A stretch of 64,000 bases of DNA from Clostridia bacterium (GTDB taxonomy: Bacteria > Bacillota > Clostridia > TANB77 > UBA1234), in contig JAFYBZ010000022.1 in NCBI GenBank assembly GCA_017539905.1, forward strand, positions 141,191-205,190, in the 5' to 3' direction. Below, piece by piece: positions 3,297 to 11,416 of the stretch. Both the position numbers and the translations under genes were made by a program. The first letter of the stretch is position 1; the number at the start of each line of letters is the position of its first letter. The notes under the pieces are model-generated. The model was not told where the DNA came from and did no database searches. It worked only from the letters and a program-made list of their open reading frames with translations.

Positions 3297-5093
3297 ATGA
3301 AAAAATCTACAATTATTTTTATTGTTATAGCAGTGGTAATTCTAATCGTTGCTTCTTTATCTCTAGGAGTTTTGTTATTTAATCAAGCTCGAAGTACAAC
3401 TTCAGGTTTGGCTTCCATGTCAAGTTATTCAAGCCTTGATTCAATTTCATCAACAGGAAAGTATGGAATGTATTCTTCTTATTCTCCTTCTAAGTCTAAC
3501 TATATGGGCTTTTCAGTTGGTGGCGCTAAAGATATCGAAAACTTTAGAGAGAATATAAAGAATAAGTATTTCCCAATTTCTACTGACATTACATACAATG
3601 GATTGTTTTATGATTATATGTTTGATACTGGTGTTGATAATTCAAAGAGAACAGGAAATGAAAACATTTTCTTCCCATCATATTCAACAGCTATATCAAA
3701 AGATCCATTCTCAGATAAACAAGAATACTATATGACTGTTGGACTAAACTCAAATATCAAAGAAGAAGATTTTCAAAGAAAGAAGTTAAATCTTTTAGTA
3801 TTATTAGATATTTCAGGTTCAATGGGTTCACCATTCTATAGTTATTACTATGATAATCCATTAGAGTATAACAACAATGGCGAAGAATATAGTAATGAAT
3901 CTAAAATGAAACTTGCTAACAAAGCAGTTTGTACAATTATTGATCAACTAAATCAAGATGATAAGTTTGGTCTTGTTACATTTGATACAAATGCAAGTAC
4001 AGAACAAAAGATAGAGCAAATTTCAAAGTTGAATATTAGTAAACTTAAAGAAAAAATCATGAGAATTAATGACAAAGGCAGCACAAACTTCTCTGCAGGA
4101 TATATCAAAGCTACTTCAGAATTTGCTGATTTCCAATATGATAATAAAGATGAATATGAGAATAGAATAATTATCATAACTGATGCTATGCCAAACTATG
4201 GTGATTTTGATGAAGATAGCCTAATGGGATTAGTTAAAAACAATGCAACATCAGGAATATATACAACTTTTATAGGTGTTGGCGTTGACTTTAATACTAA
4301 GTTAATAGAAACAATTACTGATGTAAAAGGCGCTAACTATTATTCAGTTCATAATAGTAAGGAATTTGCAGAAAGAGTTGATGAAGGATTCGAATACATG
4401 GTTACACCATTAGTATTTGATTTATCTTTAGATGTAAAATCAGATGATTTTAATGTTACTGCTATTTATGGTAGTGATAGTGCAAGTGTTAAAACCGGAA
4501 ATATTATGAAAGTAAACACATTGTTCCCATCTAAGAGTGAAGATGGAGAAGTTAAAGGTGGAGTAATCCTATTAAAGCTTTCTCCAAAGAATGGAAATAA
4601 TGGTAAGATTGATGTTTCAGTTTCTTACGCTGATAGAAATGGTAAAAAGTTTAGTGATACTCAATCAGTTACATTTAAAAATACAAGCGATGACTATTAT
4701 GATAATTCTGGTATTAGGAAAGCTATAGTATTAACTAGATATGCTAATACTTTAAAAGATTGGATACTATACGAAAGAAGCGCTGATAAGAAATTCTTAA
4801 TTCTTCCAGTATCTGGAATCATTGATGGATATGAATTTGATGAAGATTATGTATTAGTAGTTTTAGGACAACATGAAAGAGCTTCTGTAGCATTAAAAGT
4901 AAGTGATGAATATAAAGAAATATTCAAGAAACTAAAAGAATATATTGAAAAAGAAAACGAAGTATTAAACGATGACACTTTTAAACAAGAGTATGATGCA
5001 CTTGATTTATTAATTAATTTTGAACCAAGTGATTCACAAGATGATGATGAAGATGATTATACTAGCATCTTCGATTATGGAATTATGTATTAA
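3297..5093 (+). CDS. Membrane-anchored VWA-domain protein
   Basis: A 598-residue protein with an N-terminal transmembrane anchor (residues about 5-28), a Ser/Tyr-rich linker, a von Willebrand factor A domain (about 165-365) and a C-terminal beta-rich region, as in the chloride-channel-like VWA proteins of Bacillota. The MIDAS DxSxS motif (DISGSMG) is intact at residues 171-177, and a later IITDAMP supplies the usual metal-coordinating aspartate, so metal-dependent binding is likely. It is probably exposed outside the membrane. It lies between tpiA and pgk with its own AGGAGG-type site (TGGAGGTT), so it may be transcribed with glycolytic genes. Its ligand is unknown. Confidence 0.85.
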   Translation: MKKSTIIFIVIAVVILIVASLSLGVLLFNQARSTTSGLASMSSYSSLDSISSTGKYGMYSSYSPSKSNYMGFSVGGAKDIENFRENIKNKYFPISTDITYNGLFYDYMFDTGVDNSKRTGNENIFFPSYSTAISKDPFSDKQEYYMTVGLNSNIKEEDFQRKKLNLLVLLDISGSMGSPFYSYYYDNPLEYNNNGEEYSNESKMKLANKAVCTIIDQLNQDDKFGLVTFDTNASTEQKIEQISKLNISKLKEKIMRINDKGSTNFSAGYIKATSEFADFQYDNKDEYENRIIIITDAMPNYGDFDEDSLMGLVKNNATSGIYTTFIGVGVDFNTKLIETITDVKGANYYSVHNSKEFAERVDEGFEYMVTPLVFDLSLDVKSDDFNVTAIYGSDSASVKTGNIMKVNTLFPSKSEDGEVKGGVILLKLSPKNGNNGKIDVSVSYADRNGKKFSDTQSVTFKNTSDDYYDNSGIRKAIVLTRYANTLKDWILYERSADKKFLILPVSGIIDGYEFDEDYVLVVLGQHERASVALKVSDEYKEIFKKLKEYIEKENEVLNDDTFKQEYDALDLLINFEPSDSQDDDEDDYTSIFDYGIMY

Positions 5094-5112: not shown

Positions 5113-6300
5113 ATGAAACAAACAGTTGAAGATTTAGATGTAGGTGGAAAAAGAGTATTGGTTAGATGTGACTTTAATGTTCCACAAGATGAAAAAGGAG
5201 CTATTACTGATGATAGAAGAATTAGAGAAGCTCTTAAAACAATTAGATATTTAATGGAGCATGATGCAAGAGTAATCCTTTGTTCACACTTAGGACGTCC
5301 TAAAGGAGAAGTAAATCCTAAATATTCTTTAAAGCCAATTGCAGTTCGTTTATCTGAATTATTAGGCGTAGAAGTTAAGATGGCTGAAGATGTTATAGGA
5401 GAATCTGCTCATAAACTTGCTGAAAACCTAAAAGATAGAGAAGTAATGCTAATTGAAAATGTTAGATATGATGCTCGTGAAGAAAAGAACGATCCAGAGT
5501 TTTCTAAAGAATTAGCATCTCTAGCAGAATTATATGTAAATGATGCATTTGGTACTGCTCATAGAGCTCATAGCTCTACAGCAGGTGTTGCAGATTACTT
5601 ACCTTCAGCTGTTGGTTATTTAATTAAAAAAGAAATTGATATTATGGGTAAAGCATTAGAAAATCCAGAAAGACCATTTGTCGCTATTTTAGGTGGCAAA
5701 AAAGTTTCAGACAAAATATCAGTAATCGAAAACTTAATTGATAAAGTTGATAGTTTAATTATTGGTGGTGGAATGTCTTACACATTCTTTAAAGCACAAG
5801 GAAAAGAAATTGGAAAATCAATTTGTGAAGATGATAAAATTGATTTAGCTAAAGAATTGCTTGCAAAAGCAGAAGAAAAAGGTGTTAGATTAATTCTTCC
5901 AGTTGATAATGTAGTAGTTCAAGAATTTTCAAACGAAGCCCCTTCAATGGTTGTTTCATCAGATGAAATTCCAGAAGATTATCAAGGAGTTGATGTTGGT
6001 CCTAAGACATTAGAATTATATGCGGAAGTATTAAGAGACGCTAAGACAGTTGTATGGAATGGACCTGTTGGAGTATTTGAGTTTGATAATTTTGCTAAGG
6101 GAACAAACAAAGTTGCTGAAATCCTTGCTGGATTAGAAGGCGCTACTACTATTATTGGTGGTGGAGATAGTGCAGCTGCAATTGAAAAAGGTGGATTTGC
6201 AGATAAAATGACTCACATTTCCACTGGTGGTGGTGCTTCTCTTGAATTCTTAGAAGGCAAAGTTTTACCTGGTATAGATTGTATTACAGATAAAGAATAA
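5113..6300 (+). CDS. pgk: Phosphoglycerate kinase
   Basis: Makes ATP from 1,3-bisphosphoglycerate in glycolysis. At 395 residues it is a standard bacterial PGK. The N-terminal [15 protein letters not shown] with substrate-binding residues, GGKKVSDKI for nucleotide binding, WNGPVGVFE and the glycine-rich IGGGDSAAA near the C-terminus are all visible. The start follows TTGGAGGTAATTTAAA, 19 bp after the VWA gene, which supports one operon with tpiA. No gapA or eno is present in this window. Confidence 0.98.
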
Positions 6301-6348: not shown

Positions 6349-8832
6349 GTGAGTCTACTGAATATTGAAACATTTCTTGATTATAACGAAGTTATAAAAG
6401 TTGTATTTGAAATTGTAGAAGGCAAAACTAATTATCATTACGAATGTAATTCAAATAATGAAAAATTAAAAAATAATATTCTACAAAATCTTCAAAAGAT
6501 TTCTACAACTCAAGATTTTCCAGATAGTTGTGTTTTATCTATCAATAAAGCCATTTTTATAATAATTAATAAAGAAAATGGAAAAGTTGCAGTATTAAAT
6601 AGACTTACTGCTTTTGAATCTAGATTGCTTTCTCAAAGTAGAACTGATGGAGTACCATATCCTAGGGACTATTTAAAGGGAGCAAGTGTTAAAACAGATT
6701 TACATACACATTTTGCAGGGGCTCTTACACCAGAGTCTCTGCTTAAAGTCGGCTTAAAACACGATATAGATTATCCAATAGATTTATTAGAATCAATCGG
6801 TATTGATGTTTCAAGATACGGAGTAGAACCAGGTGGAAGTGTAAAACTTTCCGAACTTACTCCTAATGACTTAAGAACATTACAAAATAATTTAGCTATT
6901 TCTCCTGTTACACAAGATACTTTTGGAAAGATGGAAGAGATATATGGCCTTAGAAAACCTTTTACTAAAAATATTTCATTACTTCCTGATTTATTAAGGG
7001 AGCTTGCGCAAGATTACAAGAGTCAATGTATTCAATATGTTGAATTATCTTTAGCAGATTTTCTTAAGCCAGAAAAAGCATTGGATTGTTTAAAAATAAT
7101 AGATGAAGTATTACCTCAAATAGAAGCTGAATTTGGCGTGAAAATTAGATTTTTAGCTGCTATACGTAGAAGTGATGTTCCAGAAAAAAGACAAGATAAT
7201 GTTGATAAAATTGTTGCACTTTCACAAAGTAAATATATTGTAGGTTGTGATTTTATGGGTCACGAAACAACACCTACTATTGATTTTGAACAAGAATTAA
7301 GAATGTTAGTTAGACATTGTATGCTAAATGATCCTCATTTTACTATTAGAGTACATGCTGGCGAGAATCCATTATTTAGATCTAATGTTTATGATGCATT
7401 AAAAATTATAGATGATGAATATCAAAAAATATGTGCAGAAAAGAATAAAGAATTGCCTAGACCTTGTGTAAGAATAGGTCATGGTTTGTATGGTGCAGAT
7501 ATTGATAGAGACGGCAAAGGTGAACATGTTCCAGATGGAGCCGTTATAGAATTAATGAAAAAGACAGGTGCTATTATTGAATTCAATATGAGTTCTAACT
7601 TAGCACTAAATAATGTTAATGAATTATCTACAATTCCAATTAAAAGATATAGTGATGCTGGAATTAGAGTTGTATTATGTACTGATGGTCATGGATTATA
7701 TCGTACTACAACTCAACAAGAAATTATTTTAGCTGCAATTGCAGGTTTAATAGCTGAAGATTTTCATAAGATACAAGATACTGAAGAACTAATTATGGAT
7801 GATGCAAAAGACCGCGACAAAGAACATAGCGAGTCTAAAAAACCAGAAGAAATTTTAGAAGCAATTACTTATTCGACTTCTGATAAAAAGCCAAGATTAA
7901 GTTCTAAAGTGAAAGAAAGATATAAAAAAAAAGAAGAAAAAGATTTAAAAACACTTGATTCTAAATATGAAAATTTTGGTGCTACAACTGATGAAGAAGA
8001 AATTGAAAGCGATACTGAAGGAAAGACACCAATACTAATTTGTGGTGGATCAAAAATTTCGTGGCCACATATTCATCCAAGAGATCAAGGTAAAATTGCT
8101 TTAACATTACATGTTCTTGCAAAAGTATTAAATCCTGAAAAAGCATATTTAGTCATTCGTGGAACAAATACTGGTATAGACAAAGAAGTACTAAATGCGG
8201 TAAGAGATAGAAATAGCCATGGTGGACAAAGAATGACTGTATTAGGAACATATACTGAAGAAGCTATTGATGATATAGAATCAGGCATGCCAGAAGATAC
8301 GATTACTCATGCAATGCTTTTAAAATCAGGAAACAAGCCTGCTAAAAAATGGTCAGAATTACCTGACACACAACTAGAATATATTAGAAAAAGAAAAGGT
8401 GTTGTTATTGCTATGGGTGGTGGAATTATCACTGCTGATTTAATTCAAAAAGCATACAACATTGGACTTGATTTACACTTGATGGATGGACCATACGGAG
8501 CATCATCTGATGAAAGTGTTGCTTTGTTTGGTAACGATGTATCATTTACAACAGTTGCAGAATTAGTTGTAAGACTTTATAAGAGCCATCCTGAATTATT
8601 TGCTGAAGGAATTTCAATTGAAAATTTAATGACATATATTGAACAATCTCAAGAGGAAATAATTCAAAGTAAATTCTTAAATGTTGTCTCTAACTTTGGT
8701 CTTGGTGCATTAGCAAATATTGATAAACTAGTTTCTGATAGACAAAGACGTTTAGGAATTAGCAAGATTAGACGTGCTATTAGAGAGCAAGAGAGAGCAC
8801 TTCAGTATAATAAGGAGGTGCCTGGAAGATGA
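6349..8832 (+). CDS. Adenosine deaminase-like / SLOG-like Rossmannoid fusion protein
   Basis: An 827-residue, apparently three-part protein. Residues 1-115 are an unassigned domain. Residues 116-480 look like an adenosine/AMP deaminase TIM barrel: HTH at 119-121, HAGE from 336, IGHG with His378, and TDGH with Asp446. These are the expected zinc ligands and catalytic residues, but the usual TDD is TDG, so the substrate may differ. A charged linker (about 485-555) leads to residues 560-765, which resemble a DprA/LOG/SLOG Rossmannoid fold: ILICGGSK, RGTNTGIDKEV near 604 and AMGGG near 690. The GTG at 6349 overlaps AAGAGGTGA, so translation could instead begin at CTG 6358. Gene order pgk-this-gpmI. 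The SLOG assignment is by eye. Confidence 0.72.
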   Translation: MSLLNIETFLDYNEVIKVVFEIVEGKTNYHYECNSNNEKLKNNILQNLQKISTTQDFPDSCVLSINKAIFIIINKENGKVAVLNRLTAFESRLLSQSRTDGVPYPRDYLKGASVKTDLHTHFAGALTPESLLKVGLKHDIDYPIDLLESIGIDVSRYGVEPGGSVKLSELTPNDLRTLQNNLAISPVTQDTFGKMEEIYGLRKPFTKNISLLPDLLRELAQDYKSQCIQYVELSLADFLKPEKALDCLKIIDEVLPQIEAEFGVKIRFLAAIRRSDVPEKRQDNVDKIVALSQSKYIVGCDFMGHETTPTIDFEQELRMLVRHCMLNDPHFTIRVHAGENPLFRSNVYDALKIIDDEYQKICAEKNKELPRPCVRIGHGLYGADIDRDGKGEHVPDGAVIELMKKTGAIIEFNMSSNLALNNVNELSTIPIKRYSDAGIRVVLCTDGHGLYRTTTQQEIILAAIAGLIAEDFHKIQDTEELIMDDAKDRDKEHSESKKPEEILEAITYSTSDKKPRLSSKVKERYKKKEEKDLKTLDSKYENFGATTDEEEIESDTEGKTPILICGGSKISWPHIHPRDQGKIALTLHVLAKVLNPEKAYLVIRGTNTGIDKEVLNAVRDRNSHGGQRMTVLGTYTEEAIDDIESGMPEDTITHAMLLKSGNKPAKKWSELPDTQLEYIRKRKGVVIAMGGGIITADLIQKAYNIGLDLHLMDGPYGASSDESVALFGNDVSFTTVAELVVRLYKSHPELFAEGISIENLMTYIEQSQEEIIQSKFLNVVSNFGLGALANIDKLVSDRQRRLGISKIRRAIREQERALQYNKEVPGR

Positions 8833-9278
8833 CAGCGGATTATAAACAATCACTTACAGAAGTTGATACAATTCTTCAATTCATGAATGAAGATTTAACT
8901 AAAAAACTTCCTGTTCAACTAATTGAGTTTATTAAAGACAATAAAGATAACTATTATGTTCCAAAAATTGATTCTAGTATTCCTATTGATGAACAACGTT
9001 TAAAACCAGACACAATGGTTTTACTTTCATTACTATATAGAAATTATTGGTGTGATGAAAATAAGAGATACGAATTTAGATTACAAGAGAACATGATTAG
9101 TACATATGAAGGCAATTTTGTTCCATTTAGGAATATGAAAGAATTCACAGATAGTCTTAATGTAAAACCAATATACAAAGTTGAAGAGACACAATTAGTT
9201 AAAAAAGAAGATATCAATTGGTTTCAAAAATTATTAAATAAATTTAAAAGTTTTTTTTCAAATGATCATAGGAGGTAA
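8829..9278 (+). CDS. Unknown protein coupled to the deaminase fusion
   Basis: A 149-residue protein that I do not recognise. Its ATG overlaps the stop of the fusion gene (ATGA), with AAGGAGGTG just upstream, so the two are translationally coupled and probably act together. The N-terminal two thirds look soluble and mixed alpha/beta; the last 20 residues form a basic, amphipathic helix-like tail (WFQKLLNKFKSFF). It could be a regulatory or membrane-associating partner. Function unknown. Confidence 0.7.
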   Translation: MTADYKQSLTEVDTILQFMNEDLTKKLPVQLIEFIKDNKDNYYVPKIDSSIPIDEQRLKPDTMVLLSLLYRNYWCDENKRYEFRLQENMISTYEGNFVPFRNMKEFTDSLNVKPIYKVEETQLVKKEDINWFQKLLNKFKSFFSNDHRR

Positions 9279-9282
9279 TTAA

Positions 9283-9732
9283 ATGGATAGCGAAATTCAA
9301 GAATTTCAAAATGATATCATGGCAAAATATGGAATTAAATCTTTGGAAGATGCAGCAGTTATTTGCAGAGAAAAAGGAATCGATGTAGTTGGCATAGTTA
9401 AAGATGTTAAAGAAGATGCTTCTAATGACTGTATTATGGCCTTTACATTAGGTACAGCTATTGCAATTAGGAAAGATACCAAACTTGCTTCTTATGTTGC
9501 AATTGATATCGGAGAAGGTATTCAAACTTATCTAGGTAATGCATTTGGAGAACCAAAATCTGGCATTGACTTAGGCTTTGAAATTTGTAACTTACTAAAA
9601 GACAAGGAGCATGATGATACAACACTTGTTAGAAATTACAGCGAATGTATTCCTTTCTTGCAACTAAACAACGATGAGATCTATAAAATTACATCAGAAA
9701 TATGTTTTCGCATTGAGGCCTTAAATAAATAA
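9283..9732 (+). CDS. Unknown small protein, third gene of the deaminase-fusion unit
   Basis: A 149-residue soluble protein starting 4 nt after the preceding stop, with AGGAGGTAATTA as its ribosome binding site. A central block (IAIRKDTKLASYVAIDIGEGIQ, split here as IAIRKDTKLA then SYVAIDIGEGIQ) alternates strand and helix and has several glycines, suggesting a compact alpha/beta fold, but I cannot name the family. It closes the three-gene unit begun by the fusion gene and is followed by a hairpin at 9750-9780. Confidence 0.7.
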   Translation: MDSEIQEFQNDIMAKYGIKSLEDAAVICREKGIDVVGIVKDVKEDASNDCIMAFTLGTAIAIRKDTKLASYVAIDIGEGIQTYLGNAFGEPKSGIDLGFEICNLLKDKEHDDTTLVRNYSECIPFLQLNNDEIYKITSEICFRIEALNK

Positions 9733-9749
9733 CATTTAAATGCATTAAT

Positions 9750-9780
9750 AAAGAGGTTTAGTATATTACTAGGCCTCTTT
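9750..9780 (+). terminator. Hairpin after the deaminase-fusion unit
   Basis: AAAGAGG at the left end pairs with CCTCTTT at the right, and two G.U pairs plus TAGT/ACTA extend it to 13 bp. The T-tract is weak, so partial read-through into gpmI is possible. Confidence 0.6.
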
Positions 9781-9880
9781 ATGTTAACATTAAATATTCA
9801 AATATTTGTTTCATTTTTTAGCATTAAATGATATAATATTAGGCGAATTTGTATATTTTAGTTTAAGAAAGGAAATGTTT

Positions 9881-11416
9881 ATGAAAGACAAATTAACGAT
9901 GCTTGCAATCCTTGATGGATGGGGCATTAATGAAAGAGAAGAAGGCAATGCAGCTAAGCTTGCAAATACTCCAAATTTAGATAGTTTATTTTCACAATAT
10001 CCAGATAATATTATACATACTTCTGGATTAGATGTAGGTCTTCCTGATGGTCAAATGGGTAACTCTGAAGTTGGTCATATGAATATTGGTGCAGGAAGAA
10101 TTGTTTATCAAGAATTCACTAGAATTTCTAAATCAATCGATGATGGTGATTTCTTCTACAAAAAAGAATTTTTAGATGCTTTAGATTATGCTAAGGAGCA
10201 TAATACAAATTTACACATTTATGGACTTTTATCTGATGGTGGAGTCCATAGTCATAACACTCATTTATATGCTTTACTTAAGTTTTGTAAAGAAAATGAT
10301 TTTGACAGAGTATATGTGCACTGTTTCTTAGATGGAAGAGATACACCACCTTCATCTGCTGAAAACTATATTATTGAGTTAGAAGACAAGATGAAAGAAA
10401 TCGGTGTTGGTAAAATCGCTTCTATCATGGGTAGATATTATGCTATGGATAGAGATAAGAGATGGGATAGAGTAAAACTTGCTTATGATGCTTTAACAAA
10501 AGGCGAAGGTCTTACAGCTTCATCTGCAGTTGATGCTATCGAATCTTCTTATCAAAGAGAAGAATTTGATGAATTCGTTAAACCAACAGTTGTATTAAAT
10601 GGTGAAGGAAAACCAGTTGCAACTATTAAAGAAAACGATTCAATTATTTTCTTTAATTTCCGTACAGATAGAGCAAGAGAATTGACAAGAGCAATTGTTG
10701 ATCCTGAATTTAAAGAATTCGAGACAAAATATTTTAAAACAAAATATATTTGTATGACAGAATATGATGCTACTATGCCAAATGTTGAAGTTGCTTTCAA
10801 ACCTGAAAAACTTACTAACAATTTTGGCGAGTATATTTCTAAACAAGGTTATACTCAATTAAGAATTGCTGAAACTGAAAAATATGCTCACGTAACATTC
10901 TTCTTTAATGGTGGCGAAGAAGTAGAGTATCCTGGAGAACATAGAATATTAGTAAACTCTCCAAAGGTTGCTACTTACGACTTACAACCAGAAATGAGTG
11001 CTTATGAAGTTACTGACAAGGTAGTTGACGTAATTCGTGAAAATCAAACAGATGCAATTATATTAAACTTTGCTAACTGCGACATGGTTGGACATACAGG
11101 TAGCCTAGAGGCTGCTATTAAGGCTGTAGAAGCAGTTGATGAATGTATTGGTAAAGTTGCTAACGAAGTATTAAAGGTAGATGGTACATTGATAATAATC
11201 GCAGACCATGGTAACTGCGAGCAAATGATTGATTATACAACAGGAGATCCTCACACAGCTCATACTACAAATCCTGTACCAATCATACTTGTATCTAATA
11301 ATAAGAGCTTAAGAATAGGTGAAGGAAGACTTGCTGATATAGCTCCAACTATGCTTGACATAATGAATTTACCTAAGCCTGAAGAAATGACCGGACATTC
11401 ATTGATAATTAGGTAA
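9881..11416 (+). CDS. gpmI: Phosphoglycerate mutase, cofactor-independent
   Basis: Converts 3-phosphoglycerate to 2-phosphoglycerate; this is the manganese-dependent, 2,3-BPG-independent enzyme. The 511-residue length fits. Visible signatures are ILDGWG at the N-terminus, NSEVGHMNIGAGR holding the phosphorylated serine, LLSDGGVHSH, and ADHGNCE and DPHTAHTTNPVP with C-terminal metal ligands. I prefer the ATG at 9881 because AAAGGA at 9868-9873 then has a 7-nt spacing; an ATG at 9875 is too close. A -10 box TATAAT at 9832-9837 suggests its own promoter in addition to read-through. Confidence 0.97.
   Translation: MKDKLTMLAILDGWGINEREEGNAAKLANTPNLDSLFSQYPDNIIHTSGLDVGLPDGQMGNSEVGHMNIGAGRIVYQEFTRISKSIDDGDFFYKKEFLDALDYAKEHNTNLHIYGLLSDGGVHSHNTHLYALLKFCKENDFDRVYVHCFLDGRDTPPSSAENYIIELEDKMKEIGVGKIASIMGRYYAMDRDKRWDRVKLAYDALTKGEGLTASSAVDAIESSYQREEFDEFVKPTVVLNGEGKPVATIKENDSIIFFNFRTDRARELTRAIVDPEFKEFETKYFKTKYICMTEYDATMPNVEVAFKPEKLTNNFGEYISKQGYTQLRIAETEKYAHVTFFFNGGEEVEYPGEHRILVNSPKVATYDLQPEMSAYEVTDKVVDVIRENQTDAIILNFANCDMVGHTGSLEAAIKAVEAVDECIGKVANEVLKVDGTLIIIADHGNCEQMIDYTTGDPHTAHTTNPVPIILVSNNKSLRIGEGRLADIAPTMLDIMNLPKPEEMTGHSLIIR

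Follow-up and report, generated by a model that had tools for sequence, protein, structure and literature searches.

A predicted adenosine-deaminase-like protein fused to a TRPM-type SLOG domain in Clostridia and other bacteria

INTRODUCTION

Proteins that join a nucleotide sensor to a nucleotide-related effector have precedents in Cad1 (CARF-ADA) and ThsA (SIR2-SLOG). Cad1, from type III CRISPR systems and active in response to cyclic oligoadenylate, has its sensor fused to an adenosine deaminase (ADA) barrel in which both substrate aspartates are replaced (the D296 site is Asn and the D19 site is Gly, in mouse ADA numbering); it converts ATP to ITP and does not use adenosine (PMC12669630; PMC11645235). 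Thoeris ThsA similarly has an enzyme, the SIR2 NADase, and a SLOG sensor in one chain. ADAL and the AMP deaminases share the ADA fold, act on 5'-phosphate substrates, and keep the second Asp of the TDD motif. RADAR RdrB and Kongming KomA are also ADA-family deaminases, both serving phage defence, and to our knowledge neither occurs fused to a SLOG domain. The ion channel TRPM2 contains a SLOG domain of the LSDAT ('SLOG in TRPM') subfamily, MHR1/2, together with a NUDIX domain (NUDT9H); the MHR1/2 pocket binds ADP-ribose, and the deaminated form, IDP-ribose, does not act through MHR1/2 (PMC7555694).

Here we describe a protein encoded in a 64,000-nucleotide stretch of Clostridia DNA (the window) that joins an ADA barrel to a C-terminal LSDAT-type SLOG domain. 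It resembles Cad1 in fusing a sensor to an ADA barrel with equivalents of both D19 and D296 replaced, but has SLOG rather than CARF as its sensor; it resembles ThsA in layout, but with an ADA rather than a SIR2 enzyme; and it differs from ADAL and the AMP deaminases in having a SLOG domain at all. It shares the SLOG subfamily of TRPM2 by fold, but has a deaminase where TRPM2 has a channel, and although the window copy has no NUDIX domain, its Myxococcota relatives carry one C-terminal to SLOG. A full-text literature search, whose scope did not extend to the original 2015 LSDAT survey, returned no description of an ADA-LSDAT fusion.

RESULTS AND DISCUSSION

Organization of the locus

Three forward-strand open reading frames lie between pgk (5113-6300) and gpmI (9806-11416), both also on the forward strand, with positions agreeing with the original prediction. 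The fusion gene (6349..8832, 827 aa) overlaps ORF2 (8829-9278, 149 aa) by ATGA and is translationally coupled to it, and ORF3 (9283-9732, 149 aa) follows after a 4-nt gap. The listed GTG start of the fusion gene at 6349 sits within a Shine-Dalgarno-like AGAGGTGAG, and a CTG at 6358 gives the N-terminus MNIETFLDY, for which one relative has MNVEAFLDY at the same point, so that the true start may be the CTG. Between ORF3 and gpmI, a forward-strand hairpin with a weak T tail (9755..9775; the fold of 9755-9812 has -10.1 kcal/mol, z -2.4) is a possible transcription end. A membrane-anchored-looking VWA-domain protein (3297-5093; Pfam 4.3e-11) occupies the tpiA to pgk interval, and the same protein is found near glycolysis genes in genomes G003 and G005.

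Domain architecture and the deaminase barrel

The full-length AlphaFold2 model (pLDDT 89.9, pTM 0.85) has three parts, beginning with a small alpha/beta domain (6349..6684, aa 1-112) that belongs to no known family and has no match in a Pfam scan. The ADA barrel follows (6697..7788, aa 117-480), with a Pfam A_deaminase match of 7.7e-20 and the motifs HTH, HAGE, IGHG, and TDG. Residues H119, H121, H336, E339, H378, and D446, which bind metal or serve catalysis, are kept in 44 relatives wherever the region is present, and a TIM barrel with HxH, HxxE, H, and D residues places the protein in the ADA superfamily. In Foldseek, the barrel model matches ADA, ADAL, AMP deaminase, and Cad1 structures, with human ADAL the best and plant N6-mAMP deaminases scoring nearly equally; a BFVD fold search gave generic barrel matches only. 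The predicted deaminase barrel with intact zinc and catalytic residues is thus borne out, and because these residues are conserved in the 44 relatives, the ADA and SLOG features are, as judged by alignment, homologous rather than chance resemblances.

The substrate site departs from canonical adenosine deaminases. Aligned to solved ADAs, HLDGN is replaced by HLAAN and TDD by TDG, so that A123 and G447 stand in the window copy where mouse ADA has its substrate aspartates D19 and D296. Every one of the 44 relatives has Gly at the D296 position, and Asp never occurs at the D19 position, where Asn, Ala, His, or Phe is found instead; the Myxococcota copies have Gly at the second site in all ten and Ala at the first in the nine with that region present. 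Both aspartates are lost at the same two sites as in Cad1, although the residues differ (Gly rather than Asn at the D296 site, and Ala, Asn, or His rather than Gly at the D19 site), and by analogy the deaminase likely acts on a phosphorylated substrate. An altered substrate had been proposed from the TDD to TDG change, and the invariant Gly together with the lost D19 equivalent strengthens that proposal. The PADLOC CARF_ADA model matches only the ADA part of the fusion (3.3e-14); Pfam scans of the window protein and its relatives contain no CARF domain, no CRISPR context was seen at the fusion loci, and the RADAR and Kongming partners RdrA and KomB/C were not seen near the fusion genes.

The SLOG domain

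The C-terminal domain (7981..8658, aa 545-770) is modelled with a pLDDT of 93 and is assigned from the model, Foldseek, weak Pfam matches in relatives, and motifs. Its best 50 Foldseek matches in the PDB are all TRPM channels through MHR1/2 (best E 1e-8; TM by query 0.48-0.61), with no DprA, LOG, or Thoeris ThsA structure among them, and the modelled domain therefore belongs to the LSDAT clade. Modelled separately, the region upholds the SLOG part of the original prediction, at approximate boundaries of 545-770 rather than 560-765, and the suggested likeness to DprA and LOG gives way to TRPM. Pfam LSDAT_prok matches 8 and LSDAT_euk 7 of the 44 relatives, all weakly and below the curated cut-off (the best score among matches listed is 17.5 bits against a cut-off of 25.4), and the window protein has no LSDAT match in its Pfam scan. 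A profile sequence search of the PDB with the SLOG domain gave chance matches, with Nematostella TRPM2 at E 0.44.

In the clade that includes the window copy, the glycine-rich ligand loops repeatedly read TG(A/S)S, TGGTxxGVE, and GGGxxV. The catalytic motif of LOG phosphoribohydrolases is PGGxGTxxE, and it is absent from the SLOG motif table of the relatives. The window copy has CGGS, RGTNTGID, and GGGIIT, and since R604 and D611 differ from most relatives, its ligand site may have drifted and its ligand binding may be weakened. A SIR2 domain is absent from the fusion protein by Pfam, and no TIR gene was seen beside the fusion genes, either in the window or among the 25 commonest Pfam families listed for the relatives' neighbours.

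ORF2, ORF3, and the pgk-gpmI interval

The two genes downstream had been proposed as partners of unknown type in a three-gene system. ORF2 does lack a curated family match in Pfam, and a candidate relationship to Cas6 (PADLOC 0.0072) was rejected as chance. Its relatives are immediate neighbours of the fusion gene in G004 and G115, as ORF2 is in the window, and at locus L053 the distance is one gene, but the family is present in 1-7 copies in 12 of the 13 genomes of the window's family, with none outside the order in the class sample, and its members (L162-L195) immediately follow numerous unrelated proteins, in many cases with an overlap or a gap of a few bases. Like ORF2 itself, some copies carry a basic C-terminal tail that looks helical. 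ORF2 is, as far as homology and position indicate, a lineage-specific companion and not a partner of the fusion enzyme in particular.

ORF3 proved to have a known family, matching the N-terminal third of Pfam GGGtGRT (PF14057; 1.5e-16, positions 12-109 of 327) without covering the full 327 positions. Six relatives have longer GGGtGRT copies, one of them ending at a contig edge. A 40% relative of ORF3 lies beside gpmI in G005, a genome without the fusion, so that ORF3 is separable from the fusion gene, and G006 has a full-length GGGtGRT gene near gpmI; ORF3 belongs with the gpmI neighbourhood. The stand-alone N-terminal third is seen in two genomes of one genus (window 9283-9732 and L215), with full-length forms in other genera.

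The pgk-gpmI gap is a place of gene gain and loss, since in G003, of the same genus, about 20 bp separate pgk from gpmI and no gene intervenes, and in G005 the gap holds an unrelated 218-aa gene with the look of an HD-type hydrolase (L156 8760-9416). In G004 the fusion gene and ORF2 are located elsewhere. Neither the three-gene system nor its tie to glycolysis is supported by these comparisons.

NUDIX domains and other neighbors

Each of the ten Myxococcota copies found has a NUDIX domain fused at its C-terminus, identified by direct reading of the Nudix box, and L067 also has one. Pfam NUDIX matches are significant in the Myxococcota copies that were scanned, and in two alphaproteobacteria (L061 and L064) the domain is encoded by a separate neighbouring gene. 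The solved structures closest to the NUDIX domain include MutT, AraR, and NMNAT-Nudix types, and ADP-ribose hydrolysis by this domain is possible. L051 is adjoined by a protein resembling PGDYG (Pfam 0.01, under the cut-off), and proteins adjoining L054 and L055 and fused segments in L057 and L062 look similar by eye.

No enzyme that makes a signal (TIR, cyclase, or Cas10) was seen as a recurrent neighbor of the fusion gene. Among the matches to the 25 commonest PADLOC models listed for 62 neighbors of window-type loci, the strong ones come from one DNA methyltransferase, followed by mad2 in two members (6.4e-10), and the Pfam families listed for the same neighbors are mostly housekeeping genes. 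These neighbors do not support a defence-island gene, and a defence role is compatible with them.

Distribution

Within the window's own family, one other genome of 13 encodes the fusion (G004, same genus, 49% identity), and at the level of the order 79 of the 287 genomes sampled have a match, almost all of these belonging to a different family. A scan of genome contigs with an alignment query found 330 relatives, the closest of which (36-48% identical) are in Clostridia, Bacilli, Saccharibacteria, Gastranaerophilales, and Alphaproteobacteria, with taxon labels taken from metagenome-assembled genomes in which short contigs may be mislabelled. The single-protein query found nothing in genome contigs, where the alignment query was needed, or in viral contigs, and a sequence search of plasmids and phages gave no match. 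The fusion is present in 10 of 193 Myxococcota genomes. In a tree made by a quick method and with some long branches, the window copy falls in a mixed-phylum clade, and there is also a Clostridia-only clade. This patchy spread over several phyla suggests that the fusion moves between lineages and is useful.

Proposed function and alternatives

Alignments and structure models between them establish the two predicted folds, an intact catalytic centre, the aspartate losses, the TRPM-type SLOG domain, recurrent NUDIX domains, and the patchy occurrence across phyla, and a single chain may detect one nucleotide and modify another chemically. Inferring gating, ligand, substrate, and role, we give an even chance to the fusion being a ligand-gated adenine-nucleotide deaminase under TRPM-type SLOG control. 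The nucleotide bound by the SLOG domain would most likely be, as in TRPM2, ADP-ribose or one of its relatives; ligand-bound SLOG would control the zinc deaminase barrel; and the barrel would remove the amino group at position 6 of an adenine nucleotide that carries a 5'-phosphate (of ATP, AMP, ADP-ribose, or NAD type), adenosine not being its substrate. If so, bacteria pair an altered deaminase with nucleotide sensing of the TRPM type, plus NUDIX in the Myxococcota, which would constitute a third sensor-effector pairing beside CARF-ADA and SIR2-SLOG and a prokaryotic, easily studied relative of the ligand-handling parts of TRPM2; this reading predicts deamination of phosphorylated adenine nucleotides under control of an ADP-ribose-like ligand. 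A narrower version, which we regard as rather improbable, has the same class of molecule both sensed and deaminated: ADP-ribose, or a relative that is cyclic or derived from NAD, would be converted to its inosine form, turning the signal off because that form (IDPR) is not accepted by the TRPM2 MHR1/2 pocket (PMC7555694), and the Myxococcota NUDIX would then hydrolyse it. The protein would then be a bacterial ADP-ribose signalling enzyme composed of TRPM2 ligand-handling domains.

An unlikely but by no means negligible alternative is housecleaning or salvage, in which the deaminase, SLOG, and any NUDIX domain act in sequence on an adenine nucleotide that is damaged or modified, without sensing. 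NUDIX partners are a usual mark of nucleotide sanitation, the best and near-equal Foldseek matches of the barrel (ADAL and the plant N6-mAMP deaminases) fit such a role, the gene is common and stand-alone in many genomes of one clostridial family, and most neighbors are housekeeping genes. However, the SLOG fold is of the TRPM sensor rather than the LOG hydrolase type, the LOG motif is not seen in the motif table, and a patchy window-type clade is unusual for a housekeeping function. That same patchiness, the Cad1-like active-site changes, and the use of SLOG and also ADA domains by known defence systems would suit an anti-phage effector like Cad1 or Thoeris, in which a nucleotide signal that rises on infection binds SLOG, leading the deaminase to poison or deplete the pool of ATP; we hold this to be fairly unlikely, given a PADLOC neighborhood without defence-island context, the absence of sequence matches from plasmids, phages, and viral contigs, and no adjacent signal generator seen.

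The glycolysis-linked nucleotide sensor of the original prediction, comprising the three genes from pgk to gpmI, is barely credible: relatives occur in many other contexts, pgk and gpmI are adjacent without an insert in G003, ORF3 is separable, and the hairpin divides it from gpmI. The position with its short gaps and one Saccharibacteria relative near phosphoglucose isomerase speak for it. Scarcely more probable is a role as a building block in large multidomain proteins, possibly delivered, that act outside the producing cell, for which an alphaproteobacterial open frame with ADA-SLOG at its N-terminus is an example, but the window copy and most relatives are stand-alone proteins of about 830 aa.

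Atypical copies

That alphaproteobacterial frame (G661, L208 181-16941) is 5,586 aa long and begins with an ADA-SLOG module that includes HTHWPG, HAGES, and VTGGNDYGIEK; in the further part scanned with Pfam, nothing significant was found. The G115 copy (L046 3875-6803) is broken into two frames and has an extra N-terminal domain, whose counterpart beside the L053 copy is a gene of its own (39% over 239 aa, E 1e-38).
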